Below, in pieces: positions 13,286 through 48,579 of a stretch of 50,689 nucleotides of DNA (the stretch's first letter is position 1; each line of letters begins with the position of its first letter). The notes beneath the pieces are model-generated. The model did no database searches. It saw only the letters and a list, made by a program, of their open reading frames with translations, and was not told where the DNA came from. The DNA comes from an uncultured Rhodospirillales bacterium (GTDB lineage: Bacteria > Pseudomonadota > Alphaproteobacteria > Acetobacterales > Acetobacteraceae): positions 1-50,689 of the forward strand of contig CAIYMY010000041.1 of NCBI GenBank assembly GCA_903927465.1, given 5' to 3'. The translations under genes and the position numbers were made by a program.

Positions 13286-13334
13286 GATCGCATTTTCCGA
13301 GTCGCCAAGTTTTCCACTTGGCTTGAAAATGCTT
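13286..13334 (+). repeat. Palindromic repeat family, copy A
   Basis: A 49-bp imperfect palindrome: outer arm GCATTTTC, then CGAGTC, inner arm GCCAAGT, loop TTTCC, inner arm ACTTGGC, TT, outer arm GAAAATGC. It forms a direct tandem pair with copy B at a 53-bp period. It lies between the 3' end of xerC and the start of dapB. All positions pair, apart from the unequal internal loop (6 bases against 2) between the stems. Confidence 0.9.
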
Positions 13335-13338
13335 GTTT

Positions 13339-13387
13339 GACCGCATTTTCCGAGTCGCCAAGTTTTCCACTTGGATTGAAAATGCTC
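13339..13387 (+). repeat. Palindromic repeat family, copy B
   Basis: Second unit of the xerC-dapB pair, 49 bp, same orientation as copy A, with only GTTT between the units. The outer stem GCATTTTC/GAAAATGC is intact; the inner right arm is ACTTGGA, losing one pair. Its last bases overlap the xerC stop codon (complement of 13386-13388), so the element directly abuts the coding sequence. Confidence 0.9.
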
Positions 13388-14318
13388 AATCCGCCCGCGG
13401 ATGCGCCTTCCGCCAAGTCTCCAGCAGCGCCGCCGCATCCACCGCAGTATAGCGCTGCGTGGTGGAAAGGCTGGCATGGCCGAGCAATTCCTGAATGGCG
13501 CGCAAATCCGCACCACCGCCCAGCAAATGCGTGGCAAAGGAATGGCGCAGCGCATGGGGGCTTGCATGTTCCGGCAGCCCGGCAAGTCTGCGAAAATCGC
13601 GTAGCCTTTTCTGTGCCACCGCCGGATCAAGCCGCCCGCCACGCGCGCCGATGAACAGCGGCTCATCCGCTGCTCCGCTGCCGCGTTCGGCCAGATAGGC
13701 CGCCATGGCATCGCGGATCACCGGCAATATCGGCACCAGCCTTTCCTTATTGCCTTTGCCAACTACGCGAAGCGCAGCGTCAGACCCCTGGCGCGGCGCA
13801 TCGCCCAAATTCAGCGCCAAAGCCTCCCCAAGTCTCAGCCCCGCGCCATAAAGCAGCGTGAACAAGGCGCGGTCACGTGCGGCTTGCAGGCGCGGGTGTT
13901 CATGCCGCCCCAGCGCATAGACATCGGGGATTTCTTCGGCGACGGCGCGCGCTTCCTTGATGCTGAGCGCACGCGGCAAAGGCACTTTCGCACGTGGTGC
14001 GCGCAGCCCGGCAAGCGCGATAGGCGCCATGCCCTGATGGCGCTGCAAATAGCGCAGAAAACTCCGTACAGCGGCAAGCTTGCGGGCGCGGGTGGCGCCC
14101 ACATCGCCTTCCATGGCGCGTGCGGACAGGAAGGCGCGCAAATCCGTTAGCCGCAGCGTGCCGAGCGTGGCCAGATCGGGCTCGGCACCCAGATGCCCGG
14201 TCAGAAAGCCAAGGAATTGCGCCACATCGCGCCCATAGGCTTCGATGCTATGCGCACTCGCGCGGCGTTCTTGGGCGAACCAGCCAAGCCAGGTGGCAGC
14301 GGCCTCAGCCCCGGTCAT
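13386..14318 (-). CDS. xerC: Tyrosine recombinase XerC
   Basis: Site-specific recombinase that, with XerD, resolves chromosome dimers at dif. The 310-residue protein has an N-terminal SAM-like core-binding domain (about 5-95) and a catalytic domain with all expected residues: R162 in GAGLRLGEAL, K188 in VVGKGNKER, H255 and R258 in HALRHS, H281 in LLGHASLSTTQRY and the nucleophile Y290. The full set argues for an active enzyme. It lies 62 bp downstream of the DUF484 gene on the same strand, a pairing common in proteobacteria. Palindromic repeats flank it on both sides, and the two copies at its 3' end run into its stop codon. Confidence 0.94.
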   Translation of the reverse strand: MTGAEAAATWLGWFAQERRASAHSIEAYGRDVAQFLGFLTGHLGAEPDLATLGTLRLTDLRAFLSARAMEGDVGATRARKLAAVRSFLRYLQRHQGMAPIALAGLRAPRAKVPLPRALSIKEARAVAEEIPDVYALGRHEHPRLQAARDRALFTLLYGAGLRLGEALALNLGDAPRQGSDAALRVVGKGNKERLVPILPVIRDAMAAYLAERGSGAADEPLFIGARGGRLDPAVAQKRLRDFRRLAGLPEHASPHALRHSFATHLLGGGADLRAIQELLGHASLSTTQRYTAVDAAALLETWRKAHPRAD

Positions 14319-14322
14319 GTCG

Positions 14323-14372
14323 GAGCATTTTCAAGCCAAGTGGAATCAATTGCCGGCTCGGAAAATGCGACC
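14323..14372 (-). repeat. Palindromic repeat family, copy C (inverted)
   Basis: A 50-bp copy in the opposite orientation, filling most of the gap between the DUF484 stop (14381) and the xerC start (14318). The outer stem GCATTTTC/GAAAATGC is exact, whereas the inner right arm has drifted (CAATTG where the others have CACTTGG), so the inner stem is weakened. It begins 8 bp after the DUF484 stop codon in the direction of transcription. Confidence 0.85.
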
Positions 14373-14380
14373 ATACAACG

Positions 14381-15091
14381 CTACCTTGAAATCGCTGCCG
14401 CCACCGCGCGGCCCAAGAACGAAAGGGGTTCCGTGCCATGCCGGGCGGGCAGGGCATTGGCATCCCGCGCGCCCAGCGCCAGCAGCATGAGCGGTTGCTG
14501 CGCCACCGTCACGCGTATCAGCGCATCGCGCACAATCAGGCCCGCGGCTTCGCCATGCAGCGTCTCGGCATCCTCTGGCTTTTTACGCACCAGCACATCG
14601 CGCCCGCGCCCCAATAGTTTTTCGACCATGCCGCGGGGCAAGGGGCGTTGTTCCGGGCGCATCCAAAGCTGGGCCGGGTTCTCCGGCGGCTCAATGCAAA
14701 TGGTGCAACTTTCAAGCCCCAGAAGATTGGGCCATTCCTGCGCAACAGTTTCCGGCACATCATCTGATCGCATCAGCGCCAGCACTGCCAGCCTGACGCG
14801 TGACACCAGCCCAAGCCCGGCGCGTTCCGCATCCAAAGCCAAGCGCAATTCTGCATCCAGTGCGGATGCGCGTTCGCGTTCTGCGCCCAGCATTGCCGCC
14901 ATGTGGTCAGTCAGCCCATCACCATGCACGCGGCGCGGCGGCGCGAGCGCGAGATAAAGTTCAGGCCGCGCCGCCAAAAATCCAGGATTGGCGCGCAAGA
15001 ATTCTTCCACCTCCTCAGCCGAGGGCCCGTTCGGGGCCTTCCCGTCTGAGGGCGGGTTGCTCACAGGATGCTTTGTCCTGTCTTTTTCCAA
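14381..15091 (-). CDS. DUF484 family protein
   Basis: Conserved protein of unknown function, 236 residues, usually encoded beside xerC. The N-terminal part [29 protein letters not shown] (24-52) is the family opening. A predicted coiled-coil helix with many Glu/Arg follows (about 65-100), and then a GAF-like region with [15 protein letters not shown] and the ending [29 protein letters not shown]. Its first 31 bases overlap the 3' end of the transaldolase gene, and it precedes xerC, so the three are probably one transcript. DUF484 has been proposed to be a GAF-type sensor, but no role is established. Confidence 0.88.
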
Positions 15092-15717
15092 TCCGCCAAA
15101 AACGCCTCCAGCCCACTATCGGTTAGGGGGTGCTTCAGCAATTGGCGGATCACGCTGGGCGGTAGGGTGGCCACATGCGCGCCAAGCTTGGCACTTTCCA
15201 CCAGATGGATAGGGTGGCGGATGGAAGCCACCAAAACCTCCGTGCGGAGTGTGGGGTAATTGCGGTATATCTGCACAATGTCTGCAATCAGCCGCATGCC
15301 ATCGGTCGCAATATCATCAAGCCGCCCGACAAAGGGGGAAATGAAGGCGGCACCCGCCTTGGCGGCCAGCAGCGCTTGGGCTGCGGAAAAGCAAAGCGTG
15401 ACATTCACCAAGGTGCCTTCGGCGGCAAGCGTCCGGCAGGTAATCAGCCCTGCTTCCGTCAGCGGCACCTTCACCGCCACATTGGTCGCAATGGCGCGCA
15501 GAAAGCGCCCTTCAGCTAGCATGCCGGCAGCGTCCGTCGCGGTCACTTCGGCGCTGACGGGCCCAGGCGTGATGGCGCAGATTTCCGCAATCACCTGCTT
15601 CATGTCGCGGCCGGATTTGGCAATCAGCGATGGATTTGTGGTCACGCCATCCACCACGCCCAATTCAGCAAGGGCGCGGATTTCGGCAACTTCGGCGGTA
15701 TCAATGAAGAACTTCAT
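15061..15717 (-). CDS. fsa: Small transaldolase / fructose-6-phosphate aldolase
   Basis: Class I aldolase of the short TalC/FSA group that makes or cleaves fructose-6-phosphate or transfers dihydroxyacetone units. The 218-residue product starts [20 protein letters not shown], has [14 protein letters not shown] (23-36) and the Schiff-base lysine K83 in [11 protein letters not shown], and ends with a DWKKTG stretch typical of the decameric enzymes. The start at 15717 is chosen because the open frame upstream (to 15882) encodes nothing family-like. Transaldolase and aldolase activities cannot be told apart here. It is divergent from priA over about 103 bp and overlaps the DUF484 gene. Confidence 0.92.
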
Positions 15718-15820
15718 GAATTCCAATCCTGCATGGCGAACAACGATGCTTTGGCGGGGGATGGCGCCGCCCGACGCAAAGCGCAAGCTCGCCACCACCA
15801 GCCATGCTAATGAATAGCGC

Positions 15821-18043
15821 ATGACGGCCCCTTTGCGAATGCAGCCCCTTTTGCCTGAAACAATTTCTCCAAGTTCTGCCAAACGCTTGCGGGTTCTGCT
15901 GCCCTTGCCGCTGGCGGATGCCTATGATTACCGGGCGGAGGGTGAAGCACCGCCCCCTGGCAGTTTCGTCGCTGTGCCCTTGGGCGGGCGGCAGGTGCTT
16001 GGCGTGGTGTGGGACGAGGCACCCGATTCGACCCTGCCGGAGCATCGGTTGCGCTCCATCGCCGCCGTGCTGGAAGCGCCCCCCATGCCGGAAAAGCTGT
16101 GCCGCTTTGTTGATTGGGTCGCGGCCTATACGCTTTCCCCGCGCGGCGCGGTGCTCCGCATGGCGATGAGTGTCCCCGCCGCGCTTGAAGCGCAGCCCCA
16201 TCGCGCCGGCTGGTGCCGCGCTGATCCCTTGCCCGAAGCGCCGCGCCTGACGCCCGCGCGCCAGCGCGTGCTGGCCGCCTTGCCGGTGGATCAGGTGCGC
16301 GCCCCCGATGATCTGGCGCGGGAAGCCGGCGTGGCACCCGCCGTGCTGCGCGGTATGGCCGATGCCGGCTTGCTGATCCCCGGCCTGCTGCCGCCGCTTG
16401 AAGAATTCAGCCTGCCCGATCTGGCCCGCCCCGGCCCGGTGCTGGACTCTGACCAGGCCGAGGCCGCCGCGCTGCTTCGCGCTGCCGTGGCGCGTGTGGC
16501 TTACGGCACCACGCTCCTTTCTGGCGTGACCGGTTCCGGCAAGACCGAGGTCTATTTCGAAGCCATTGCCGCGGCACTTCAGGCCGGGCGACAGGCTTTG
16601 GTGCTGCTTCCTGAAATCGCGCTTTCCGCGCAATGGCTTGATCGCTTCCGCGCGCGCTTTGGCACCGACCCAGCGCTTTGGCATTCTGAACTTTCGCCCC
16701 GCACGCGGCGCATTACCTGGCGCGCGGTGGCCGAAGGCCGCGCCCCCGTGCTGGTGGGGGCGCGTTCGGCGCTGTTTCTGCCTTTTCCCAATCTCGGCCT
16801 GATTGTGGTGGATGAGGAACATGAAACCGCCTTCAAGCAAGAAGAAGGCGTGATCTATCACGCACGCGACATGGCCGTGGTGCGGGCGCGCTTGTCCGAT
16901 GCCGCCTGTGTGCTGGTAAGTGCGACACCCTCGCTTGAAACCCTCACCAATGCGCGCGCTGGGCGATATGCTGAATGTCATTTGGCGGCGCGGCATGGTG
17001 GCGCGGTGATGCCCGAGATTGGCTTGATTGACCTCAGGCGCGAAAGCCCGCCGCGCGGGCGCTTCCTGAGCCCTGCGCTGGTGGCCGCCGTGGCGGAAAC
17101 GCTCAAGCGCGGCGAACAGGCCATGCTGTTCCTGAACCGGCGCGGCTATGCGCCACTCACGCTATGCCGCGCCTGTGGCCATCGGCTGCGTTGCCCGAAT
17201 TGCACCGCCTGGCTGGTCGAACACCGCGCCGCGCGGCGGCTGCAATGCCACCATTGCGGCCACGTCGAAGCGCCGCCCAACCATTGCCCAAGCTGCGCCG
17301 CACCACATAGCACGGTGCCAATCGGGCCTGGGGTGGAGCGTGTTTTGGAAGAAGCCGCCACCCTTTTCCCCGAAGCGCGCCGCCTGGTCATGGCATCCGA
17401 TACGCTGCCCGGCCCAGCCGCCGCTTCTGCCGCAGCCAAAGCGATTGAAAAGCGCGAGGTTGATCTGATCATCGGTACGCAAATCGTCGCCAAGGGCTGG
17501 CATTTTCCCTATCTGACGCTGGTGGGCGTGGTGGATGCTGATCTTGGCCTTGCCGGCGGTGATTTGCGCGCCGCTGAACGCACGGTGCAATTGCTGCATC
17601 AGGTGGCCGGCCGTGCGGGGCGCGCGGAACATCCTGGGCGCGTCTTGCTGCAAAGCTTTTCCCCGGATCATCCGGTGATGCAGGCGCTGGTTTCCGGCGA
17701 GTATGAAGCCTTCATGGCCGCCGAGGCAGAGGCGCGGCGGCCAGGGCATTGGCCGCCCTTTGGCCGGCTTGCGGCGCTGATCGTGAGTTCCCCGGATGAA
17801 AAGGCAGCGGACCGAGTCGCACGGGATTTGGGCCGCGCGGCCCCGATGGGAGATGGGGTGGAGGTTCTGGGCCCCGCGCCCGCGCCGCTCGCCTTGCTGC
17901 GCGGGCGGCATCGCCGGCGGCTTTTGCTCAAGGCGCGGCGCGATGTTGGCGTACAGCGTCTATTGGCCGAATGGCTAGCGAAGGTGGATGTACCCGGCAA
18001 TGTTCGGGTGCAGGTGGATGTGGACCCGGTGGGGTTTTTGTAG
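15821..18043 (+). CDS. priA: Primosomal protein N' (replication restart helicase PriA)
   Basis: 3'-to-5' DNA helicase that recognises stalled forks and reloads the replisome. The 740-residue protein has the N-terminal DNA-binding domain (about 22-120), Walker A GVTGSGKT at 235-242, Walker B DEEH at 331-334, and a zinc-binding insert around 449-491 with eight cysteines in CxxC pairs ([13 protein letters not shown] and CHHCGH...CPSC). The later [13 protein letters not shown] and [14 protein letters not shown] are helicase motifs V and VI. The ATG at 15821 is followed by a 20-residue leader, and the ATG seven codons in is also possible. It is monocistronic, convergent with dksA. Confidence 0.96.
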
Positions 18044-18071
18044 GGCAGGCGGCCCGCGCCGCCCGTAAGTC

Positions 18072-18488
18072 TCAATCGTCGCGATGCACCCGTTCCATGC
18101 GTTCATGGCGCTCCTGCGCCTCGATCGTCATGGTGGCGATGGGGCGGGCTTCCAGTCGGCGGAGCGAAATCGGCTCTCCGCTTTCCTCGCAATAGCCATA
18201 GGTACCGTGTTCAATTCTCTCTAGCGCCTGATCAATCTTGTTGACCAATTTGCGCGACCGATCCCGGGTGCGGAGTTCAAGTGCCCGGTCCGTTTCAACC
18301 GAAGCGCGATCTGCGAGATCCGCCTCAGCAATGCCACCTTCGGAAAGGGAGGAAAGCGTCTCAACCGCTTCGCGAACAAGATCCTGCCGCCATCTGAGAA
18401 GCTTCTGTCTGAAATATTCCAGATGAAGCGCATTCATGAATTCCTCGGAAGCCGAGGGACGGTAATCGGGCGGCAATGTCACCAACAT
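18072..18488 (-). CDS. dksA: RNA polymerase-binding transcription factor DksA
   Basis: Secondary-channel factor that works with ppGpp to reset rRNA and amino-acid promoters. The 138-residue protein has the coiled-coil with acidic tip ADLADRAS (D57, D60), then YGYCEESGEPISLRRLEARPIA and a C-terminal helix. Of the four zinc-finger cysteines of the E. coli protein only C100 remains; the others are S103, T121 and A124, a pattern I associate with alphaproteobacterial DksA that folds without zinc. The ATG at 18488 is used since it has a GGAAGAAAAAG ribosome-binding region; the frame is open nine codons further. It sits between priA and the flagellar genes. Confidence 0.92.
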   Translation of the reverse strand: MLVTLPPDYRPSASEEFMNALHLEYFRQKLLRWRQDLVREAVETLSSLSEGGIAEADLADRASVETDRALELRTRDRSRKLVNKIDQALERIEHGTYGYCEESGEPISLRRLEARPIATMTIEAQERHERMERVHRDD

Positions 18489-18630
18489 ATCTTTTTCTTC
18501 CCCCGCCTTGCACAACCGCCGAGGTGATTTCTTTACTGAAACCTGTCTCGTCGGATTGGCTGCCTTCTATACCGGCTTGCCCGGGGGCGCCAGGGGGCGT
18601 TTCAAGACAAATATCTGACAAAAGCCGATT

Positions 18631-19038
18631 TCAGCTTTCCAGGCCGCGCCGGGCCAATTCCAGCCGGGCGCGCAGTGCAATCGCCGCAACCGCCTCAGCC
18701 AGGCCCGGATCGGCGGGTTTTTCGCCCTCGGTCAGCCGGGCAAGTTCCTTTAGCCGAGCAGGATCGGCGCGGCCTTCCAGCAATTCCAACTGAAGGGCCT
18801 TCAATTCCTTGAGCATATCCTCACCGCGACGGAAGGCGCGGGCATTGCGTTCCTTGGCCGGGCCCAATTCCTGGACGGCCAAAAGCCCCATGGCGGTGGC
18901 TGCGGAAACCCCCGTGCTGGCACTGGCTTCGCGCGTTTCCTCCGCGCCGCCTCCCACACGAAAGCCTCCAGGAGCACCGCGCGCTGGCCGCGAACCCGGC
19001 ACATTTGCGCCACCTGTCACGCCACGAATAACGACCAT
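18631..19038 (-). CDS. fliX: Flagellar assembly regulator FliX
   Basis: Small alphaproteobacterial protein which, in Caulobacter, links basal-body assembly to the sigma-54 activator FlbD. The 135-residue product has a low-complexity Gly/Ala/Arg N-terminus and a conserved helical core from ATAMGLLAVQELGPAKERNARAFRRGEDMLKELKALQLELLEG to the end. GGAGGT lies six bases before the ATG. The gene is divergent from flgI, as in Caulobacter, with a sigma-54-like promoter in the 157-bp gap facing flgI. Identification rests on the core plus this gene order. FlbD itself is not in the window. Confidence 0.9.
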   Translation of the reverse strand: MVVIRGVTGGANVPGSRPARGAPGGFRVGGGAEETREASASTGVSAATAMGLLAVQELGPAKERNARAFRRGEDMLKELKALQLELLEGRADPARLKELARLTEGEKPADPGLAEAVAAIALRARLELARRGLES

Positions 19039-19127
19039 CTGACCTCCTGTTCCGCCCTAGCCCGGCAGGCTCGACCGGGGCCCGGCAGCTTTTGCCGATG
19101 AGACTCGCCCAAGGAGCCCTAGAACCC

Positions 19128-19142
19128 TGGCACGGACCTTGC
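19128..19142 (+). promoter_or_regulatory. Sigma-54 (RpoN) promoter for flgI operon
   Basis: TGGCACG, four bases, TTGC: an exact match to the -24/-12 core, with the GG (19129-19130) and GC (19141-19142) 10 bp apart. The expected transcription start is near 19154, about 40 bp before the flgI start. Rod and ring genes of flagellated alphaproteobacteria are known to use sigma-54 with FlbD. Promoter activity itself is inferred. Confidence 0.8.
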
Positions 19143-19195
19143 GGTTAGGTTTCCATCAAGCCGCCCGCCTATTGGGTGACTGACGGAGACTGATC

Positions 19196-21050: not shown

Positions 21051-21081
21051 AAAAAGACGCCCGGCAGTTACCGCCGGGCGT
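21049..21081 (-). terminator. Intrinsic terminator downstream of ridA
   Basis: Read on the minus strand, a perfect 9-bp stem (ACGCCCGGC, 21057-21065, with its complement at 21073-21081; 7-base loop) is followed by TCTTTTTTT. This is a textbook rho-independent terminator for the leftward RidA gene. It also lies at the end of the rightward flagellar operon, where only TTCG follows, so termination from that side would be weaker. Confidence 0.88.
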
Positions 21082-21096
21082 TTCGATCCAGTTCCA

Positions 21097-21129
21097 TGAA
21101 TGCGCCAGGCTTTTGCCCTGGCGCATTCA
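21097..21129 (-). terminator. Second hairpin in the ridA 3' region
   Basis: A perfect 13-bp stem (21097-21109 with 21117-21129; arm TGAATGCGCCAGG) and a 7-base loop CTTTTGC lies 12 bases after the RidA stop and 15 bases before the T-tailed terminator stem. It has no T-run of its own. It may protect the mRNA end or act together with the following terminator. Confidence 0.7.
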
Positions 21130-21140
21130 GCTTTGGTCTA

Positions 21141-22558: not shown

Positions 22559-22570
22559 GCCTCATCAGGT

Positions 22571-37159: not shown

Positions 37160-37978
37160 ATGAATGTAGTATTAAATAAAGAAAATTGGGTAAATTCACC
37201 CGAAACGCCAATTTTATGCTTTCTTCATATTCCCCGCACCGGCGGCACTACCATCAACCTCATGTTGAAATACGCCTTCGGTAATCGCGCCTTCTTCCAT
37301 GCCGAGCTTGTGGTGAAATACGGCGGAGAGATTGGGCTCAGCGCTGCGCTCGCCAAAAATAATGATGTTTGCCATCGGGCCCTGCTGGTCACGGGCCATT
37401 ACAGCGTGGCCCATCCGCTTGTGGCGCGGGCACCCCGCCCGGTCGGCATCGCCGCTGTTTTGCGCCAACCGCTGGAACGCATTGTCTCTCTTTATGACTA
37501 TATTCGCGGCACGCCGGATCATCCGGAGCATGCTGCACTTAGCCTGCTCACCCTCAATCAGGCGCTGGATGCGGTGCCGGAATTCGCCGCCCATTGCCGG
37601 GACTCGCAATTGCGCACGCTATTCAATGCCACGGACCGGCCCGGCATCACGGCAGCGTTGCAGCGCTACCCCTATCTGCTGGGCCGGATGGATGCTTTGG
37701 ATGTCTTTGCCCAAAGGCTGCTCGCGTCCTTTGGCCTCACGCTTGGCGGAGTGCTGCCGCGCTTCAATGAAAGGCCGGTGCTGGCGGGGGTGGCGCCGGC
37801 GCGATCACAGGCTGATTACGCCACGGCGCTGGCGACGCTTGAACGCCAAAACCGGGCCGAGCTTGAGTTTTTCGCGCGCCTGCCGCCGATTTTCGCAACC
37901 ATGCCAAGGACCGCCATGGCGCTGATGGGCGTATCTAGTATGTTTCCCGTTCACATTCGTTCACGGGAAACATTCTAA
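37160..37978 (+). CDS. Sulfotransferase-like protein
   Basis: Predicted cytoplasmic sulfotransferase-fold protein of 272 residues. LCFLHIPRTGGTTINLML (about 18-35) is the 5'-phosphosulfate loop of PAPS-dependent enzymes, and AVLRQPLERIVSLYDYIRG (about 109-127) matches the 3'-phosphate motif (R...S) of the family. These HIPRTGGT proteins usually modify surface polysaccharides. The first 130 bases, including the leader, are visibly AT-rich unlike all neighbours, while the rest is GC-rich. The start is uncertain: ATG 37160 is chosen (AGGG upstream), ATG 37115 is possible. The last 13 codons are formed by an 11-bp inverted repeat, suggesting a changed 3' end. Confidence 0.72.
   Translation: MNVVLNKENWVNSPETPILCFLHIPRTGGTTINLMLKYAFGNRAFFHAELVVKYGGEIGLSAALAKNNDVCHRALLVTGHYSVAHPLVARAPRPVGIAAVLRQPLERIVSLYDYIRGTPDHPEHAALSLLTLNQALDAVPEFAAHCRDSQLRTLFNATDRPGITAALQRYPYLLGRMDALDVFAQRLLASFGLTLGGVLPRFNERPVLAGVAPARSQADYATALATLERQNRAELEFFARLPPIFATMPRTAMALMGVSSMFPVHIRSRETF
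37940..37973 (+). terminator. Inverted repeat across the 3' end of the sulfotransferase-like gene
   Basis: ATGTTTCCCGT (37940-37950) and ACGGGAAACAT (37963-37973) are perfect 11-bp arms around a 12-base loop, overlapping the final codons. No T-run follows directly. It could be a terminator-like stem or the scar of a small insertion; it is followed 15 bp later by repeat copy D. Confidence 0.4.
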
Positions 37979-37988: not shown

Positions 37989-38038
37989 ATTCGCGTTTTC
38001 CGAGCCGCCAAGTGATTCCACTTGGCTTGAAAACGCTC
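37989..38038 (+). repeat. Palindromic repeat family, copy D (diverged, compensated)
   Basis: 50-bp copy starting 10 bp after the sulfotransferase-like stop codon and ending 42 bp before the DUF3108 start. Its outer arms are GCGTTTTC and GAAAACGC, so the A-T pair of other copies is replaced by G-C on both sides. The inner stem GCCAAGT/ACTTGGC is perfect with loop GATTCC. Confidence 0.9.
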
Positions 38039-40078: not shown

Positions 40079-43000
40079 TCAATACTCATGCTCAAAAGCA
40101 ATCCCCACACGATCCCCCGCCAGGCTATTGCCGCCGCTTTCCGCTTCCAGACGAAACCTTGGCATCAGGTCAATCTGCACGCCAACGCGCGGCGGCCCGC
40201 CATCGGCGCTTTGCTTCAACCCAAGAAACACCCCATCCGCTACATAGCGCCCGGTTTCCAAAGTGGCGCCTGGTTCCTGCCCTGCGCGTTGTTCGCCTTC
40301 TTTCTCCTGGCCGATGGAAAGCCGATCAAGGGCGAGGGTGCGGCGGATGCGTTCCATCAGCCCACCCGGCCCGGGCAAAGGGCGGCCCGTGGCGCCGGCA
40401 AGCGCCTCGGCCAATTGCAGCATCTGGAAGGGTGAAAGATCACCACCGCGCCGGCCGAATAATAGCCGAGCCAGAACCTCATCCGCCGGCAATTCGGGGT
40501 TGGAGGTGAAGCTGATTTTTGGATCGCGCGCCGGGCCTTCCACCGCGACATTCACCTCCACCTCCTCTGCCCGCGTCGAGGCAAGGACATCCAGATTGGG
40601 CATAAGCCCGCCCGCATCGAAAGTGATATTCGCGCGGTTCAAGGTAAGCCGCCGATCCAGAACCGAAAGCGTGCCACGGCGAAGCATGAAGCCACCTTCC
40701 AAGCGCGGCGCATCAAGCGTACCGCCAAGCTTGACCTCACCGCCCAATTCCGCATCCAGCCCGCGCCCGCGCAGAAAAATCGCACGCGGTGCGTCAATGG
40801 TCAGATCAAGCGCGATCGGCGGCAGGCTTGTGGCTTCTGCCTGTCTTCGCGTTGGTGATGCCAGGGGGGGTGTGCCCTGAGGGCGCTGGCCAACCTCTCG
40901 CACCCCGGGCAGGCTACGCACGGTAGGCGGCAGCTTGTCTGGAATGCGCAATTCAGCACGCCGCACCAGCAATTTTCCAGAAAGCCGGCTTTCGCCCAAA
41001 ACCTCACCCGCGAAGCGCACCTCACCATCAAGTGTTGCGCTGCCAAGGTCTGAATTGACCGGGCGCGCGGCATCTGCCTTCAGGCGTAGATCAAAAGGCA
41101 GGCGCGGTGTGCCAAGGTCAAGCGTGCCAGAAGCGGCAAGGCTACCACCGCCCGCGGTGCGCGCGGCAAAGCGCGTCAGGTTCAGTCGCTCACCTTCTGC
41201 TATGATGGCTGCGGTAATCTCATTCAATGAGACGCCATGCTGCAAATCGCGAAAGCTGCCATTGGCGATATTGGCCTGCCCGCCCAGGCGCGGCGCCGCC
41301 AGACTGCCTTCCAGCCGCAGATTGAGATTGGCAGTGCCACCTACACGCTGCGCCCCGGCGGCAAGCAGCGGCTGCGCAAGGCGGCCCAGATCAAGCTGGC
41401 CGGTGACGCTGCCGGAAAGCGGCGCTTCAGCGCTGAGCGCCGCAATCCGCGCCGTTGCGGCAAGCCGCACTGTATTGCCGCCATTGAGCGAGGCACGCGC
41501 TTCCGCCCCCGCTCCATTGCCCGTTGCGGAGGCGACCAGGCGCAAAGGCGGCACGCCGCGCGCCGCCGGCACGGCGCTGGTAATCGCAGGGCTTTCCAAC
41601 CGAATGTCGAAGCGCGGTTCGGCAGCCGTGCCTTTCAGCGTTGCCTGACCCGAAAGCGTGCCGGCCAATTTCGCTTCCGGCGCCGCCAGCGCCGCGAAGG
41701 GCGCGATGGGCAGGGCGCTGAGCGTGGCATTCAGCGCAATCTCCGCCTCGCTCCAGAAACCCTCAAGCTTGAGCCTGCCGCCGCGATTGCTGGTGAGGTT
41801 TGTCTCCGCAAGGCTGATGCGCCCATCCGGTGCCAATTCAATCCGGGCAGGGGCAGCGAGCTTCACCTGCTCCGCACCGAGCGAGAGCGCCAGGCTTTCA
41901 AAGGTGAGCTGGCGCCCTTGGTCGTTGCCGCTCAGCGCCGCTACGCCTTCAAGCTTTGCTTCGCCATAACGTGCTTCTAGCTTGGCACGCGCATCATCCA
42001 GCCCGCCGGCAAGTTCCATCTGCAAAGCCAGCGCGCGCCCATCCAGCGTGATCTCGGGCGCGCTAAGCTTCGCACTTACCTGTTGCGCGCCATTGGCGCT
42101 CCGCCCTTCTGCTTCCAGCGACAAAGCCCCGGCCAATGCCTGGCCAAGCAGGGTGGAAAAGGGTCCCAGATCTGGAATGTTGAGCGAAAAAGTGCCATCG
42201 AAAAGTGGCTTTTGCACATCAAGCAAACCGCTGCCGGAAAGTCGCGCCGGGCCGAAGGATGCCTCGAGCTTTTGCAAGCGTAGTGCAGCGCCTTCCGGCA
42301 CGCCCAGCAAATCCAACATTACCGGCAGCCCAGCGTAGCTTGCGCGCAATTGCGCTTCGGCGCGCGGGCGCGACAAGGGCGTTTCCAGGCGTAAATCCAG
42401 ACTGGGCGCGGTCAGCACTTCCGTGCCGCGCGTGATGCTCTCGCCCCGCGCCTGCAGGGTGATTGAAGGATCATCCCGCGCGCCCCGCACATGGCCTTCT
42501 GCGGTGAGCGCGCCGGCAAATTCCGGCACCAGCCGTGCCAGATCCGCAAGCCGCAAACCGAAGCGAAGATCAAGCGTTTCGCCGACATCGCCCGAAGCGG
42601 TGAGCTCCGCGTCATCACCGGTTAGCGTCAGGCTTTCGATCCGCGTCGGTGCTGTGGCGCGGGCCTGAAGCCGCGGGCTTGCGCCAAGGGCTGCGCCAAG
42701 CGCTGGGATGGTGCTGGAAAATCCCGCAAGCGCCGCATCCAGCGTGACCCGAGGCGCCGCCAGCTTGCCATCCACCTGAAAGCGCGCGGAGGCGCCTTCC
42801 CACGCCACTTCTTCCGGCAGATAGGCCGCCAGCATTTGGCTGGCACCGAGCGCAATATTGCCTTGCAAGGCAGCTTCCTCGCGCTTGGGATCAAGGCTGC
42901 CGGAAAGCGTAACCTCGCCAAGCGGCGCACGCGCCTTGACGCTACGGAAGCTGATCACGCCGGCACGGTTGCGCGTTGCATCGAGCGTGAGATCAAGCCG

Positions 43001-43861
43001 GCTGAGCGCGGCGGTGAGCGGCGCCGGCAGCAAAGGCGCCGCCGCGACATGGCCGGCAAGCCGCGCGATACCCGCACCATGCGCATCAGCGTTGATGGTC
43101 CCGGCAAGCGCTGCGTCAGCCACGCTGCCAAGCTGCGCTTCGGCCGTGAGCGCCGCACCGCTGGCGGGACCTTCCAGGCGAAGCATCACCCGCGCCGGTT
43201 CAGAAGGTACGCCAAGCGCGCTGGCCAGCACGCCCCCCGGTGGTTCGGCAAGATCAAGCTTTGCAAACAGCCGATCCGCACCGGGGGCGAGATCAAGTTC
43301 AAGCTGTGCTGTGCCCGGCGCATCCAGCCGTGTGAGCGACACTTCCCACGATAAACGCGCATCCACCAGCGCTGCCTTGCCTTGCGCGGAAAGCCGGAAG
43401 GCCTGGCCTAAAACGCTTTCCGCAACATCAATTTCGTCAATGGCCAAGCGGTCAAGCCGAACCGCGACAGGCAGGCGCGGCAGGGATGGCAGCAGGTTGC
43501 CGTCCTGCGCTTCCTCCTTATCCGCTGGTAGGTGCGTCAACCTAATGCGCCGCGCGGTCACTTCATGCACATGCACTTCACGCCGCAGCAGCGCCTTTAG
43601 GTCAAAGGTGATTTTTGGTGCTGTGATATCAAGCCAAATACCGGCCTCATCCGCCAGGCTGATGCGCGCGGCGCCGATTTCTCGCGGCAGCTTTACCGCG
43701 AAATCCTGAATGACCAGCCCCGGCATCAAGCGCCCCGCGAGCCCGGCCAGCGTCGCCGCTCCGCTGCCCCATTGCACCCAGGCAAGCACGCCGCCCAAGA
43801 GCACGCCAAGGCATAACGGTATCGCCAACAGCAGGATCAACAGGCGGCGCAGATGGCGCAT
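40079..43861 (-). CDS. tamB: Translocation and assembly module subunit TamB
   Basis: Very large inner-membrane-anchored periplasmic protein that spans the envelope, thought to move lipids or outer-membrane proteins with TamA. The 1260-residue product has an N-terminal signal anchor (RRLLILLLAIPLCLGVLLGGVLAWVQW, about 4-30) followed by long beta-rich repeats, and the DUF490/TamB C-terminal domain (about 960-1260) with FDAGGLMPNLDVLASTRAEEVEVNVAVEGPARDPKISFTSNPELPADEVLARLLFG. It ends in a strand-like FEHEY. ATG 43861 is chosen because it precedes the anchor; the frame is open 27 codons upstream, inside tamA. The tamA stop lies one base away. Confidence 0.93.
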   Translation of the reverse strand: MRHLRRLLILLLAIPLCLGVLLGGVLAWVQWGSGAATLAGLAGRLMPGLVIQDFAVKLPREIGAARISLADEAGIWLDITAPKITFDLKALLRREVHVHEVTARRIRLTHLPADKEEAQDGNLLPSLPRLPVAVRLDRLAIDEIDVAESVLGQAFRLSAQGKAALVDARLSWEVSLTRLDAPGTAQLELDLAPGADRLFAKLDLAEPPGGVLASALGVPSEPARVMLRLEGPASGAALTAEAQLGSVADAALAGTINADAHGAGIARLAGHVAAAPLLPAPLTAALSRLDLTLDATRNRAGVISFRSVKARAPLGEVTLSGSLDPKREEAALQGNIALGASQMLAAYLPEEVAWEGASARFQVDGKLAAPRVTLDAALAGFSSTIPALGAALGASPRLQARATAPTRIESLTLTGDDAELTASGDVGETLDLRFGLRLADLARLVPEFAGALTAEGHVRGARDDPSITLQARGESITRGTEVLTAPSLDLRLETPLSRPRAEAQLRASYAGLPVMLDLLGVPEGAALRLQKLEASFGPARLSGSGLLDVQKPLFDGTFSLNIPDLGPFSTLLGQALAGALSLEAEGRSANGAQQVSAKLSAPEITLDGRALALQMELAGGLDDARAKLEARYGEAKLEGVAALSGNDQGRQLTFESLALSLGAEQVKLAAPARIELAPDGRISLAETNLTSNRGGRLKLEGFWSEAEIALNATLSALPIAPFAALAAPEAKLAGTLSGQATLKGTAAEPRFDIRLESPAITSAVPAARGVPPLRLVASATGNGAGAEARASLNGGNTVRLAATARIAALSAEAPLSGSVTGQLDLGRLAQPLLAAGAQRVGGTANLNLRLEGSLAAPRLGGQANIANGSFRDLQHGVSLNEITAAIIAEGERLNLTRFAARTAGGGSLAASGTLDLGTPRLPFDLRLKADAARPVNSDLGSATLDGEVRFAGEVLGESRLSGKLLVRRAELRIPDKLPPTVRSLPGVREVGQRPQGTPPLASPTRRQAEATSLPPIALDLTIDAPRAIFLRGRGLDAELGGEVKLGGTLDAPRLEGGFMLRRGTLSVLDRRLTLNRANITFDAGGLMPNLDVLASTRAEEVEVNVAVEGPARDPKISFTSNPELPADEVLARLLFGRRGGDLSPFQMLQLAEALAGATGRPLPGPGGLMERIRRTLALDRLSIGQEKEGEQRAGQEPGATLETGRYVADGVFLGLKQSADGGPPRVGVQIDLMPRFRLEAESGGNSLAGDRVGIAFEHEY

Positions 43862-43862
43862 C

Positions 43863-45746
43863 TCAAAAAGCCTGCCCAAAGCCGATATAGATCGCAAAGG
43901 ATGGATCATCCTTTTGCCGATTGAGCGGTACACCAACATCAAAACGGATCGGCCCGATCGCGGTCAGATAACGCACCCCAAGCCCGGTGCCGGCGCGGAG
44001 CCCGCTGAAATCAGGCTTCGCTTCTTCTCCCACGCTACCCGCATCCAGAAAGGCCGCCATACCCCAGCTTCGCGTCAGCCTTTGGCGCCATTCAATGCTT
44101 GTTTCCACCAGGCTCGCGCCGCCCAAGGGCCGATTGGCCGCATCGCGCGGCCCAATGGATTGATAGGTATAGCCACGCACTGAACCGCCACCGCCGGCGT
44201 AAAAGCGCTTATCCAAGGTGATTTCATTCCAATCCGCCCCCGGCGCACTGCCAAGGGCGGCACGCAGCGCCAGAACGCTGCCGCCATCACCGGTAATGTC
44301 GAAATAGCTGCTGCCTATTGCCAGGATACGCGTGAACTTATTCGAATCCAACACCGAGTAATAGGGTGTGGCGCTGATGTTGAAGCGCTGACCTTGCCGG
44401 GGATCAACCGGGTTGATGGTATTATCGTATCGAAACGTTCCCATCACGCCGAACAGCCTGTAATCGTTCATATCCCCATCGCGCCCGATGCGACCTTCTT
44501 CGTAATTGGGCCCGCCAGAAATCGCCATGGTATCCGACAGGCGATGTTCCAGCGTGAAGGACGCCAGGACGGCATCACGATCATAGGCAGGGAGCCTTTC
44601 GCGCACCGCGCCGATTTGCGAGACGCTTTGCAGATCTCGACCCAGAAATTCCGGTGTGCGGAGCGTGGCAAAGGCGCGATAGGTAGCGTTATCGACCCCT
44701 GTTTCGCCGAGGCCCGCAACCTCGCCTTCCAGGCGGAGCCTATCGGCGCTGCCGAAGATATTGCGGTCTTCCCAATAGCCGCTGGCGGTCAGGCCGTAAT
44801 TGGTCTCATAGCCAAGGCGCCCGCCCACCGCATGGCGGGGGCGTTCCTGTACCTGGAAATGCACGGGCAGCCGCCCAGCCTGATCCAGGGCGGGCGCTTC
44901 ATTCGCGCGAACAAAACTGAAAACGCCAAGCCCCATCAAGGTGCGGCGGGCGCGTTCCAGCCTTTCCGGCGAATAGGGCTGGCCTTCCAGCCGCCGCGCC
45001 ATAAGCCGCGTTAGCGGCGCGGGATCGGTGCGCGTGGTGCCGGTAACGGTTGGCCGGGCGAAATCCGCCAGCGGGCCGGGCGCGATGCGCCAAGTGATGT
45101 CCATTGTCTGGGTGTCGTGATCCACCACGGCGTCCCGGGCGACGACACTCGCCAAAGGATAGCCCGCGCGGCGGAGAGCGAGCAGCAGCGCTTCCTCAGC
45201 GGCCAGGATATCGGCGGGGCGGGCAGGGTCCCCTTCGGCCAGGCGCAAGTCAGCCGCGGCCTGTTCCACCAGCGCATCTTCCTGCACGGGTTCAGACCTT
45301 ATCAGGATTTGCCCGATTCGATAGCGCGGGCCGGGGGTAAGGATCACAGCCACCGGCAGGGGGTTTGCCGGGTCGGTGGTTTGGGGGCTGGCGTCGGGCC
45401 GGGTCACATCCTGCCCCGCAATCTCGATCTGCGCCGCGCCGCCCCAAAAGCCATCGGCGCGTAGCGCTTCCGTAATCCGCGGCAGATCTGCACGTGCCCG
45501 GGCCAGCAGCCCATAGCCATCGGTTGGCGCTGTATCTTCGAGTTTTATCAATTGCGAAACCGCCTCGATGCTAGACACAAGCGGCCCATCATCCTTCGGC
45601 GTGACCTCCACGCGATAGGCGATGCCGGGCGGTTCTTGCGCTGTCAGGGGATTTGCCATCAAAAGGCACGCGAATAGCAACAGGCAAGGCAACCACCTCT
45701 GGTTGGTGGTAGCTCCTTTCGGGGAAGGGTAGGAACGACGAATCAT
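43863..45746 (-). CDS. tamA: Outer membrane translocation and assembly module subunit TamA
   Basis: Omp85-family outer-membrane protein of up to 627 residues. After a signal peptide (about 19-36, ending PLTAQ) come POTRA domains (about 40-310, including IEIAGQDVTRP and VEQAAADLRLAEGD) and a 16-strand barrel from about 315, containing the conserved lid-type segment RFYAGGGGSVRGYTYQSIGP and the final strands IRFDVGVPLNRQKDDPSFAIYIGFGQAF, ending in aromatic Phe as expected for Bam recognition. The ATG at 45746 overlaps the divergent M20 start codon; a TTG at codon 19 with GAGG just upstream is a real alternative. It precedes tamB by one base. Confidence 0.92.
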   Translation of the reverse strand: MIRRSYPSPKGATTNQRWLPCLLLFACLLMANPLTAQEPPGIAYRVEVTPKDDGPLVSSIEAVSQLIKLEDTAPTDGYGLLARARADLPRITEALRADGFWGGAAQIEIAGQDVTRPDASPQTTDPANPLPVAVILTPGPRYRIGQILIRSEPVQEDALVEQAAADLRLAEGDPARPADILAAEEALLLALRRAGYPLASVVARDAVVDHDTQTMDITWRIAPGPLADFARPTVTGTTRTDPAPLTRLMARRLEGQPYSPERLERARRTLMGLGVFSFVRANEAPALDQAGRLPVHFQVQERPRHAVGGRLGYETNYGLTASGYWEDRNIFGSADRLRLEGEVAGLGETGVDNATYRAFATLRTPEFLGRDLQSVSQIGAVRERLPAYDRDAVLASFTLEHRLSDTMAISGGPNYEEGRIGRDGDMNDYRLFGVMGTFRYDNTINPVDPRQGQRFNISATPYYSVLDSNKFTRILAIGSSYFDITGDGGSVLALRAALGSAPGADWNEITLDKRFYAGGGGSVRGYTYQSIGPRDAANRPLGGASLVETSIEWRQRLTRSWGMAAFLDAGSVGEEAKPDFSGLRAGTGLGVRYLTAIGPIRFDVGVPLNRQKDDPSFAIYIGFGQAF

Positions 45747-46896
45747 GACCGATGAATTTCAAGCTACCCTAACTTCCTGGCGGCGACACCTGCACGCCCA
45801 TCCCGGCCTGACGCTGGAAGAAGGGCCGACTGCGGCCTTTGTTGTGCAGAAGCTGCGCGAGATGGGCATTACCGACATCGCCGAAAATATTGGCGGCCAT
45901 GGCGTGGTGGCAACCATCCGCCGCGGCGGGGGCAACCGCTCGGTCGGGCTGCGCGGTGATATGGATGCGCTGCCCATCGAAGAACAGGCGGATGACCTGC
46001 CCTGGCGGTCCACCGTGCCGGGCGTGATGCATGCCTGCGGGCATGATGGGCATACAACCGCGCTGCTGGGCGCGGCGCGGATGCTGCTGGAAGACAAAAG
46101 CTGGACCGGCGCGGTGCATCTGGTGTTCCAGCCGGCGGAAGAAGGCGGCGGCGGCGCGCGGGCGATGATTGCCGATGGGCTTTTCACGCGCTTCCCGATG
46201 GACCGCATTTTCGGCTGGCATAATTGGCCTGGGCTCGCCGCCGGCACGATTGCTATTCATGACCGCGCGGTCATGGCCGCCGGTGCGCGCATTGAATTGA
46301 TTTTCGATGGCCATGCCGGCCATGCCGCGCTGCCACATCTGACTCGCGACCCGCTGCTCGCGGCGGGCCATGCGATTGTGGCGGCGCAATCCATCGTGGC
46401 GCGCAATGTGGACCCGCTGATGGGCGGCGTGGTCAGCCTGACCGTGATTGAAGGTGGTGAGGCGCAGAACCAGGTGCCGCGCCGCGTTGCCATAAGGGGC
46501 ACGATTCGCTGGCTGCATGAAGAAGCGGGCGATGCCATCAAGGAAGGCTTGCAACGCATCACAGATGGCGTGGCGGCGACCTGCGGCGTGAAGGGCACGC
46601 TGATCATCAGCCCTGGCCTTGGCGTGACGGCGAATTCTCCGGCGGAGCGCGACTTGGCCGCCGCTGCCGCCGCTGCCGTCACCGAAACCCGTCGCGATAT
46701 GCGCCCGGCCATGACGGGTGAGGATTTCGCCTGGTTCCTCAAGGAAGTGCCGGGCGCTTTCGTTTGGATCGGCAATGGCCCCGCCGAGGAAGGGCGCGAT
46801 CTGCATAATGCGCGCTATGATTTCAATGACGCGATTTTGCCGGTGGCTTCGAAATTTTTGACAGAAGTCGCTAAGCGGGCGCTGGCGGGCAGCTAA
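45745..46896 (+). CDS. M20 family amidohydrolase (hippurate hydrolase / HipO-like)
   Basis: M20D-type aminoacylase of 383 residues that removes acyl groups from N-acyl amino acids. RRHLHAHPGLTLEE (13-26), RGDMDALPIEEQ (70-81), HACGHDGHT (96-104, with metal-bridging C98 and H100) and QPAEEGGGGARAM (129-141, with EE) are hallmarks, as is the C-terminal MTGEDFAWFL. The Cys in HACGHDGH and the residues of this branch separate it from the three other M20 enzymes. Its ATG overlaps that of divergent tamA (CATG), leaving no room for a separate promoter, so the promoter must lie inside tamA. Probably monocistronic; convergent with the cupin. Confidence 0.93.
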   Translation: MTDEFQATLTSWRRHLHAHPGLTLEEGPTAAFVVQKLREMGITDIAENIGGHGVVATIRRGGGNRSVGLRGDMDALPIEEQADDLPWRSTVPGVMHACGHDGHTTALLGAARMLLEDKSWTGAVHLVFQPAEEGGGGARAMIADGLFTRFPMDRIFGWHNWPGLAAGTIAIHDRAVMAAGARIELIFDGHAGHAALPHLTRDPLLAAGHAIVAAQSIVARNVDPLMGGVVSLTVIEGGEAQNQVPRRVAIRGTIRWLHEEAGDAIKEGLQRITDGVAATCGVKGTLIISPGLGVTANSPAERDLAAAAAAAVTETRRDMRPAMTGEDFAWFLKEVPGAFVWIGNGPAEEGRDLHNARYDFNDAILPVASKFLTEVAKRALAGS

Positions 46897-46914
46897 GCCG
46901 CCCGCCCTTCGAAA

Positions 46915-47316
46915 TCACCGCGCGAAGCCCGGCTGCTTTTCCACGAAGCGATTGGGCTTCAGGAAGATCGAAAGAAACAGCGCGCCTTCCGGGGCCCGCG
47001 CCACATGCGTATTGCCCGCAGGGCGCCAGACGAATTCGCCCGGCCCGCAGCGGCCTTCCTCATCTTCCAGATAGCCTTCCATGACATAGGTCTGTTCAAT
47101 ATCCGTATGTTCATGCAGCGGCACTTCGGCGCCCGGCGCCATGCGGAACAGGATGGTGGACATGCCGCGCGCCTCATCCCGGCAGAGCAGCTTCATTTCA
47201 ATCCCGGGAAATTCCGTTGCCTGCCAGGTCATTTGATCCGGCTTCAGGTAATGGGAAGCAAGCTTGGGATCACCCATTTGGCTTTGGATGCGCTGTTTGG
47301 TTGCTTCATCAATCAT
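46915..47316 (-). CDS. Cupin domain-containing protein
   Basis: Single-domain cupin of 133 residues. The metal-binding pattern is complete: PLHEH (H68, H70), E74, and H104 in PAGNTHVA, with PAGNTH matching the second cupin motif. The N-terminal helix and MKLLCRDEARGMSTILFRMAPGAEVPLHEHTDIEQTYVMEGYLEDEEG suggest a ChrR-like or dioxygenase-type cupin; enzymatic activity is not certain. A strong ribosome binding site (GGGAGAGA) precedes the ATG. It begins 24 bases after the HSL-type esterase on the same strand, so the two are probably one operon. Confidence 0.9.
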   Translation of the reverse strand: MIDEATKQRIQSQMGDPKLASHYLKPDQMTWQATEFPGIEMKLLCRDEARGMSTILFRMAPGAEVPLHEHTDIEQTYVMEGYLEDEEGRCGPGEFVWRPAGNTHVARAPEGALFLSIFLKPNRFVEKQPGFAR

Positions 47317-47340
47317 GGTCTCTCTCCCTTTTTGTTTGCT

Positions 47341-48291
47341 TCACGCAAAGCGCGCCTTCAGCCATTCACCACCCTGCCGCGCCGCACGATCCGCCGCCGC
47401 CACATGGCCGAGTGCGCGGAGGAAGCCATGGATGGTGCCGGGGAAGGTTTCTTCCGTCACTGCCACGCCAGCGGCGCGCAGCTTATTGGCGAATAGCCTG
47501 TTTTCATCGGACAAAACGTCAAGCTCCGCGATATGCACCAGCACTGGCGGCAGGCCGCGCAAATCTGCGCGCATTGGGGAAGCGAAGGCAGTGACGCGAT
47601 CCGCTTCCTTGGGCGCATAGCAGCGCCAGTAGAAATCCATCTTCTCCCGCGTCAGGAAATGTCCGGTCGCGAAAGCATCATAGCTTGGCGTCGCCATGGC
47701 GCTATCCATGACACCGTAATTGATCAGCAGGCCGCGTAGTTTTAGTGCGGGATCAGTCTCCCGCAACAATAGTGCCGTGCCGGCGGCGAGGTTCCCGCCC
47801 GCCGAATCACCGCCAATCACGATCCGGCTGGTATCCAAGCCCCATTCCGCGCCCCGATTTGCAACCCAGCGCGTGACGGCGGCGCATTCTTCCAGTGCTT
47901 GCGGGAAAATAGCCTCAGGGCTCAGCGCATAATCCACGCCAATCACGGCGCAGCCTGATGTGGCCGCATATTCGCGCATCAACCGGTCATGCGTATCCAC
48001 GCTGCCCCAAACCCAGCCGCCGCCATGCAGATAAACCAGCACCGGATGCCCCGTGCCGGCCGTTGGGCGATGGAAGCGGCAGAGAATCCGCCGCCCGCGC
48101 AGTGCCAACCAGCGATCCTCACTTTCCGCCATCACCGCGCCCCCCTTGGCGAGCGGCAGGCTGAGCCCATCATTCAATTCCCGCGAATTATCCAGCGGCA
48201 ATTCCAGCTTCACCGGGGGCTGCGCTGCCGCGCGCGCCTCCATCATTTCAGTGAAGCGCAGCATCTCAGCGTCCCAATTCTCGCGGGCCAT
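47341..48291 (-). CDS. Alpha/beta hydrolase (hormone-sensitive lipase family esterase)
   Basis: Predicted cytoplasmic carboxylesterase of 316 residues in the HSL (bacterial family IV) group. HGGGWVWG (89-96) is the oxyanion motif; the triad is S163 in GGDSAGGNLAA, D258 in AELDVLSDEN and H288 in GTIHGFLR. It lacks a signal peptide. Family IV esterases often act on small aliphatic esters or lactones. It is followed by the cupin gene and preceded by the repeat triplet and the XRE regulator, all on the minus strand. The substrate is not identifiable from sequence. Confidence 0.92.
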   Translation of the reverse strand: MARENWDAEMLRFTEMMEARAAAQPPVKLELPLDNSRELNDGLSLPLAKGGAVMAESEDRWLALRGRRILCRFHRPTAGTGHPVLVYLHGGGWVWGSVDTHDRLMREYAATSGCAVIGVDYALSPEAIFPQALEECAAVTRWVANRGAEWGLDTSRIVIGGDSAGGNLAAGTALLLRETDPALKLRGLLINYGVMDSAMATPSYDAFATGHFLTREKMDFYWRCYAPKEADRVTAFASPMRADLRGLPPVLVHIAELDVLSDENRLFANKLRAAGVAVTEETFPGTIHGFLRALGHVAAADRAARQGGEWLKARFA

Positions 48292-48421
48292 GGCATTTCC
48301 TCATTCTAGGCCGGCACAGCTTCCGGCGGATGCGTACTGGAGACTTTGTGGCGCGGAAGGGCAAGCCCTGGAGGCATTTCGCCGCGTTGGCACGCGGTGA
48401 AACGCCTCCAGGAGATTATCT

Positions 48422-48470
48422 GGTCGCATTTTCCGAGCCGCCAAGTAAGCCACTTGGCTTGAAAATGCTT
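48422..48470 (+). repeat. Palindromic repeat family, copy E
   Basis: First of three tandem copies between the XRE gene and the esterase gene. Outer stem GCATTTTC/GAAAATGC is intact, inner stem GCCAAGT/ACTTGGC intact, loop AAGCC one base shorter than in D, F and G (49 bp). Confidence 0.92.
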
Positions 48471-48474
48471 ATTT

Positions 48475-48524
48475 GGTCGCATTTTCCGAGCCGCCAAGTG
48501 AAACCACTTGGCTTGAAAATATTT
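48475..48524 (+). repeat. Palindromic repeat family, copy F
   Basis: Middle tandem copy, 53 bp after E. The inner stem is perfect with loop GAAACC; the right outer arm reads GAAAATAT, losing the terminal G-C pairs of the outer stem. Confidence 0.92.
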
Positions 48525-48529
48525 GGTTT

Positions 48530-48579
48530 GGTCGCATTTTCCGAGCCGCCAAGTGAAGCCACTTGGCTTGAAAATGCTC
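48530..48579 (+). repeat. Palindromic repeat family, copy G
   Basis: Last tandem copy, 55 bp after F, ending 4 bp before the XRE stop codon. Both stems are perfect, with loop GAAGCC. This is the closest copy to a consensus. Confidence 0.92.

Follow-up and report, generated by a model that had tools for sequence, protein, structure and literature searches.

A family of two-hairpin palindromes, probably part of a MITE-like mobile element, in an uncultured Rhodospirillales bacterium and its relatives

Repeated intergenic palindromes have been described in several alphaproteobacteria. The Bru-RS1 and Bru-RS2 elements of Brucella are intergenic and palindromic, with a length of 103-105 bp (PMC2267715), and represent possible insertion hot spots of an insertion sequence (IS) that uses a YTAR target and duplicates TA (PMC2266754). 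The RIME and Sm repeats are further repeated intergenic elements of this class, so named or referred to as repetitive extragenic palindromic (REP) elements (PMC2245857, PMC2873474). In Bradyrhizobium, the REP elements Br-REP1 and Br-REP2 are located in 3' untranslated regions, with Br-REP1 forming the middle one of three palindromes and occurring between convergent genes at about 200 sites (PMC5082802). Most GTAG and CGTC REPs are situated between genes that are unidirectional or convergent; the GTAG type frequently provides TAG stop codons, while CGTC REPs are not associated with transposase genes and have been reported missing from the Acetobacteraceae (PMC3733652). Here, we describe a family of palindromic elements initially found as seven copies in a stretch of 50,689 nucleotides, hereafter called the window, which corresponds to contig CAIYMY010000041.1 of the assembly GCA_903927465.1 from an uncultured Rhodospirillales bacterium.

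Like Bru-RS, this element is a dispersed palindrome of about 105 bp in an alphaproteobacterium, the two being compared by length and description only, and it differs by a covarying second module, of which the accessible parts of the Bru-RS papers make no mention. It was likened to RIME and Sm, as repeated intergenic alphaproteobacterial elements, by description only. The Br-REP consensus sequences, as given in the accessible part of the publication, contain neither GAGCATTTTC nor the GTGAACGAA core. Unlike GTAG and CGTC REPs, as far as the available text characterizes them, the element has two modules within about 105 bp, carries no GTAG or CGTC foot and is arranged in head-to-tail arrays instead of head-to-head dimers. 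One metagenome-assembled genome (MAG) carrying the window's element type bears the NCBI name of a member of the Acetobacteraceae, in which CGTC REPs are reported absent. Since GTAG REPs are already known to supply TAG stops (PMC3733652), the contribution of stop codons is not new as such. In the open-licence literature, no paper was recognized by title or abstract as describing this element family or repeats confined to one strand. The family is ordinary in kind; what is new about it, as far as our searches show, is its delimitation and the existence of empty sites. It adds to the alphaproteobacteria a delimited, apparently mobile palindromic family that is abundant without a detectable REP-associated tyrosine transposase (RAYT).

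The seven palindromes reported for the window in an earlier note were all located at the positions given there. They occupy four loci, with hairpins at 13290-13332 (copy A), 13343-13385 (B), 14325-14368 (C, inverted), 37993-38036 (D), 48426-48468 (E), 48479-48522 (F) and 48534-48577 (G). Their alignment contained 35 invariant columns out of 64, and DNA folding of three copies yielded z values of -4.4 to -5.2, indicating structures far more stable than those of shuffled sequences. The note had assumed a unit of about 50 bp. The palindrome is real and 44 bp long, but it forms just the first of two hairpins (module 1) in a larger element of about 105 bp, which is the median length found for 49 single-copy composites; a second hairpin adjoins three of the four loci. 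The order of the parts is GAGCATTTTC, hairpin 1, GAAAATGCG, an A-rich linker (ACCAAACAAAGG) and hairpin 2. The main type of hairpin 2 extends from TTAGAGCG or TTAGTGCG to CGCTCTAA or CGCACTAA and has the sequence TTTAGTGCGTGTCCGGTGAACGAATGTGAACGGGACGCGCACTAA, while other types are alike in position and pairing only. Both ends of the element start with GAGC or GTGC, and beyond these bases they share only an imperfect repeat of about 10 bp. The foot bases beside the stem were GA on the left and mostly GACC or GATC on the right; the alignments contained no GTAG foot, and neither consensus alignment showed a CGTC (TGTC, CCTC) foot when compared with the definition of CGTC REPs (stem of 8-9 bp, loop of 4-5 nt).

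In the window, copies A and B form a head-to-tail pair of module-1 hairpins (13289..13387, minus strand), accompanied by a module-2 hairpin at 13233..13272 (minus). Copy C (14323..14369, plus), located between a DUF484 gene and xerC, comprises module 1, with no module 2 detected beside it. Copy D (37992..38038, minus), in which GCGTTTTC/GAAAACGC represent a compensated variant of the stem, is associated with a module-2 hairpin at 37936..37977 (minus). Copies E, F and G (48425..48579, minus) constitute a head-to-tail array of three module-1 hairpins, whose module 2 (48367..48412, minus) differs in sequence type from the main type.

To delimit module 2, a fixed rule was applied (12-nt arm, no more than three mismatches, start within 9-18 nt) to a set of 93 sites, derived from numbered contigs and from loci chosen by match, with mixed-orientation arrays dropped uncounted. 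A hairpin of variable sequence was present 9-18 nt past module 1, in the GAGC-to-GCG direction, at 58 of the 93 sites. The rule fired at 58 of 90 testable sites. Among the controls, it fired in 141 of 1800 shuffled downstream sequences (8%) and, at a rate of 15-19%, in genomic sequence (449 of 3000 random 140-mers, 69 of 361 gene ends), so that part of the 58 matches are due to chance. In an alignment of 42 composites, 94.1% of the cells paired (35-45% in slid controls), and 19 of 29 pairs were changed on both sides, a value reached by none of 500 shuffles. Because only composites with a module-2 hairpin had been admitted to this alignment, the selection is biased towards pairing in helix 3, and helices 1 and 2 provide the cleaner test of covariation. 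In an alignment of 20 copies from the genome containing the window (hereafter the own genome), four pairs of the outer stem had both partners altered, and 97.1% of the cells paired, again with 0 of 500 shuffles as high. When folded as RNA, element D was very stable on either strand. Module 1 was present in two to five copies at 18 of the 93 sites. Multi-copy arrays were head-to-tail in all ten cases listed, and one inverted pair was found in a congener (locus L302). The classification as REP/BIME-type (bacterial interspersed mosaic element) given in the note is apt insofar as the copies are dispersed, numerous, REP-like and mostly placed at gene 3' ends, but not with respect to the alternating arrangement that characterizes BIMEs. 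Among six strict module-2 matches in 865 kb, one lacked module 1 and adjoined another palindrome of similar layout. A second composite type was also noticed, consisting of a palindrome GAGCATCTTCACACGTTCAGAT..ATCTGAACGTGTGAAGATGCTC and the linker GAAAAACAACGAT (L121 near 12757, minus strand; L293 near 779), with a module-2-like hairpin in L121.

The own genome is a 98.5% complete draft, with 3.78 Mb distributed over 220 contigs. The core palindrome (GCCAAGTN{3,8}ACTTGGC) was detected at 117 places in it and its reversed control at none. A covariance model of 58 positions, used for the genome searches, yielded at least 150 matches (150 of 150 scored candidates), so that the result named in the note as a refutation, a family confined to the seven original copies, did not occur. 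A sample of 465 kb, comprising the window and 40 contigs taken by number, contained 25 matches, five in the window and 20 outside, two of the latter being second-strand matches to palindromes already listed. By extrapolation from this sample, the genome contains roughly 160-200 copies. Several arrays were situated within 250 bp of contig ends (e.g. in C30, C38, C63, C65, C83, C110 and C124); because of this proximity, the assembly may break there and array lengths may be underestimated.

Among the 34 congeners, 18 gave 43-95 matches each, numbers that are bounded by the 94 candidates scored in each genome, and the other 16 gave 0-6. The element-rich genomes measured 2.6-4.2 Mb and the element-poor ones 4.2-6.4 Mb, and the xerC copies of the small genomes formed a single group in a phylogenetic tree (support 100/100). 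When 24 further genomes of the class were searched, matches came from two of them, G041 and G043. Weaker matches, from G043 and the large-genome congeners, kept the layout and mostly not the inner stem sequence (loci L061 and L073 were left out of this comparison). A pattern scan of named genomes, which may omit near relatives of the window, returned five stretches in three records. The window's element type was found in two MAGs, the first originating from Lac Pavin and the second bearing the label Asaia bogorensis (Acetobacteraceae by its NCBI name, a MAG label being no proof of family), and the element type of G043 in Parvibaculaceae bacterium Mf 1.05b.01. Similar GAGC..GCG palindromes are present in other alphaproteobacterial families, so that the lineage specificity suggested at the outset applies to the sequence of the element and not to its architecture.

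The comparison of filled and empty sites in congeners suggests that the element is mobile. The site examined most closely was the 3' end of the xerC-like tyrosine recombinase gene (13386..14318, minus), which is separated by the A/B element from the downstream dapB gene (12400..13173, minus). The GAGC end of the A/B element faces xerC, and its GA completes the TGA stop codon of this gene. Seventeen xerC copies from small genomes, including two from the own assembly, were compared: the element was inserted at the identical point (GCGGATT|GAGC) in six of them and missing in eleven, and xerC ended at the same codon irrespective of whether the xerC-dapB gap was filled or empty. In the xerC tree, the filled rows were unclustered, and the observed pattern required at least six changes, three of which were forced by supported branches. 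The gap before xerC was filled in four of the 17 cases, among them L026, which has another upstream neighbour, and had a length of one base in several others (e.g. TAG-C-ATG). L026 is a second xerC-dapB region of the own assembly (G000:C82, about 43-46 kb), with a XerC that is 91% identical to the one encoded in the corresponding region of the window (12400-15100) and a different arrangement of elements; it reflects either a second lineage within the assembly or a duplicate. With two xerC regions in the assembly, a few element copies may stem from a second lineage.

Outside xerC, 15 comparisons of filled and empty sites were made, which comprised two clean empty sites, five empty sites with other junction bases and eight array-internal or repeat views of one locus. 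At the clean sites, GGGTTAACCC corresponded to GGGTTA[element]TAACCC and GGCTTAACCG to GGCTTA[element]TAATCG, with TA duplicated in both instances. Such empty sites allow the ends and the target of the element to be defined. The palindromes are best read as part of a mobile element some 105 bp in length, which is non-coding, non-autonomous and similar to a miniature inverted-repeat transposable element (MITE), a reading to which we assign a probability of roughly two in three. Like MITEs of the IS630/Tc1-mariner or IS5/IS427 groups, which duplicate TA, the element is small and lacks coding capacity, with TA duplicated at the two clean sites and GAGC or GTGC at the start of both ends; the differences lie in the terminal repeat, which is imperfect and only about 10 bp long, in the interior, which is made up of two separate hairpins, and in the fact that no partner IS with these ends was recognized. 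The transposase moving the element would act in trans and is probably of the DDE type, duplicating TA, rather than a RAYT. Local duplication may give rise to module-1 tandems, and the inserted hairpins would end up in the 3' ends of mRNAs, where they may slow 3' decay.

The position of the elements relative to genes was determined with a purpose-built small gene finder based on codon usage. Among 75 arrays with both neighbours called, 49 were located between tandem genes (25 in one orientation, 24 in the other), 20 between convergent and six between divergent genes, as opposed to about 47, 8 and 20, respectively, expected from the intergenic bases of the sampled tiles. The tiles alone gave seven convergent, 13 tandem and one divergent case (expected 2.2, 13.2 and 5.6). 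Arrays prefer convergent gene ends and shun divergent ones. The co-directional neighbours described for the window are seen at all four of its loci but do not represent the rule genome-wide, given the 20 of 75 arrays between convergent genes. The distance of no more than about 10 bp to the upstream stop codon, given in the note for each locus, is roughly right: copy B overlaps the xerC stop (-2), G lies at 4 nt, C at 11 nt and D at 13 nt. The open reading frame (ORF) upstream of D ends inside the element. This ORF (37262..37978, plus) has a low gene-finder score and no Pfam match; it reads through the module-2 hairpin of element D, which together with the linker supplies its final codons and TAA stop, such that its C-terminal tail is encoded by the element.

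Of the 47 left ends that face a stop codon, 17 overlapped with it, the codon being TGA (T|GA) in 11 cases, TAG in five and TAA in one. Where the first bases of the element (T|GA or TA|G) contribute to the stop codon in this way, the encoded protein is hardly altered by the insertion. This ability to rebuild a stop codon offers a simple reason for the gathering of such repeats at gene ends. A terminator-like site (a stem followed by a T run) was not found on any element at the four window loci, and an interpretation as intrinsic terminators was rejected on this basis. Together with the mixed orientation relative to transcription, which was borne out by the 25 versus 24 arrays between tandem genes, this result is in line with the previous view that the elements are no simple one-way terminators. 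In an Rfam scan of the window, only a tRNA scored above the gathering threshold, and the palindromes matched no known RNA. The preference for convergent genes, the strong covariation in both hairpins and the very stable RNA folds, on either strand in the case of element D, would also be expected of old, vertically inherited RNA structures kept by the host, such as bidirectional elements for 3'-end processing or stability or weak terminators. We consider this explanation unlikely, since orthologous sites are both filled and empty among close congeners, exact empty sites exist, terminator-like sites are absent from the elements at the four loci and those members of the genus that have large genomes, about half, contain few copies or none.

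Several observations weigh against the interpretation as a MITE-like mobile element. The xerC tree is poorly resolved inside the small-genome group and based on xerC alone, so that recombination could mimic gain and loss. Only two of the seven empty sites are clean, with other bases at the junction of the remaining five. The xerC site has no clear TA on its left, and TA occupies the left junction at just 19 of the 93 sites (CG 23, TG 17, CT 12, TT 11). The enrichment at stop codons predicted in the earlier note is present but modest under the strictest null, with 21 of 40 cases as compared to 14.1 expected for random placing within the same gap. IS427-type (PF13340) and IS630-type (PF13358) transposases, which represent TA-duplicating groups, were each detected in five of nine genomes, the own genome giving partial matches only, and no autonomous IS with the ends of the element was recognized in a search covering these two transposase families, the nine genomes and loose end patterns.

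The two types of transposase do not track the element: none was found in G012, which has 95 element matches, or in G043, G177 and G327. Two of 13 IS630-type loci (L301 and L302) had an element copy nearby, and a scan of the sampled tiles for GAGC ends spaced 400-2800 bp apart gave ten loose pairs. The mover may be lost from the draft assemblies, belong to a family outside those searched or act from elsewhere. A RAYT was rejected as partner of the element. Its domain (Y1_Tnp, PF01797) had no match in the own genome and was found in one of 35 genomes of the genus, including the own genome, while the same search gave matches in five of 14 control genomes and 18 of the 34 congeners are element-rich. 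The mobilization proposed in the note, in which the hairpins of a REP/BIME are copied in single-stranded form by a Y1 transposase encoded elsewhere in the genome, was accordingly not supported. High-copy palindromes at gene 3' ends, partly overlapping stops as in GTAG REPs, and a hairpin with unpaired foot bases would suit such a mechanism; the absence of PF01797 from 34 of 35 genomes, the lack of a GTAG foot, the exclusively head-to-tail orientation of the ten arrays and the TA duplicated at two sites make it very improbable.

For the MITE-like element favoured here, the insertion junction is constrained, because the second base before GAGC was a pyrimidine at 87 of 92 sites and the base immediately before GAGC was other than C at 89 of 92. 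Some elements were seen mid-way in an older inverted repeat (e.g. L224, L241, L009 and L243). The flanks of 34 composites were more complementary than permuted pairs (3.53 versus 3.00; 6 of 2000 permutations as high); this test was conceived after examples had been viewed, so that insertion into pre-existing palindromes is a lead only.

The surprising part is the distribution of relatives of the element on one strand in a related genus. The composites of this genus consist of GAGCATTTYCA..AAATGCGAC and a linker, which in several cases is followed by another hairpin (e.g. AGAGCG..GCTC). Counts on the two strands were 23:1 in G043 (one contig), 0:21 in G177 (two contigs) and 31:1 in G327 (one contig), giving a total of 75 versus 2. 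Other members of the genus cannot test strand polarity, with counts of 3:4 in G328 (seven contigs), 1:2 in G329 (three contigs) and one match each in G325 and G326. G043 tiles amounting to 800 kb, which were scanned separately, yielded 28 forward and no reverse copies, as well as seven that fell in neither class, three of which resembled forward copies. In G043, the GC skew changes sign near 1.65 and 3.62 Mb; same-strand elements are located on either side of these points, in both replichores. They adjoin genes of either strand (six tandem plus, ten tandem minus, eight convergent, four divergent).

To compare the two genomes, 20 G327 loci were fetched, all from the 31 forward matches and leaving out the single reverse match. 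Of nine forward G327 elements comparable with G043, four were shared and five absent at the same place, where G043 has four bases at one site (L323) and 14-36 other bases at the remaining four; gain and loss were not told apart in this comparison. Since five of nine elements are missing at the same place in G043, the polarity is not merely that of an inherited old set. In the window's genus, by contrast, strand polarity was absent: neighbouring arrays on one contig had equal orientation in 11 and opposite orientation in ten cases in G014, and in ten and 15 cases, respectively, in G019 (orientation strings copied by hand, arrays collapsed by eye). In Parvibaculaceae bacterium Mf 1.05b.01 (BAOK01000001.1), three palindromes of the G043 type were found in two 8-kb stretches (L287, L291) of a 2.8-Mb contig, all on the same strand, a small hint at a similar polarity in a named record.

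A bias linked to replication or transcription would flip along the chromosome, but no such switch would result if the entire chromosome were transferred as one strand. It is conceivable, though we regard it as a long shot, that elements of this architecture insert into a chromosome-wide single strand of constant polarity, generated for instance by conjugative transfer as in Hfr (high frequency of recombination) strains or by rolling-circle copying. The strand-polar distribution would also fit mobile DNA whose hairpins are recognized in single-stranded form by an unrecognized enzyme of the IS200/IS605-like or HUH-related kind, with module 1 as the left and module 2 as the right end. One hairpin near each end in a fixed end-to-end order, the lack of long terminal repeats and the head-to-tail arrays point in the same direction. 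The TA duplication at the two clean sites, the absence of Y1_Tnp from 34 of 35 genomes and the lack of a strand preference in the own genus speak against it and render it quite improbable. If confirmed, the one-strand distribution would open the DNA substrate of insertion to direct testing.

As a minor observation in the window, a sigma-70-like match at 48415-48444 (minus) overlaps copy E and is directed at a hydrolase gene (one found versus 0.1 expected from shuffles).

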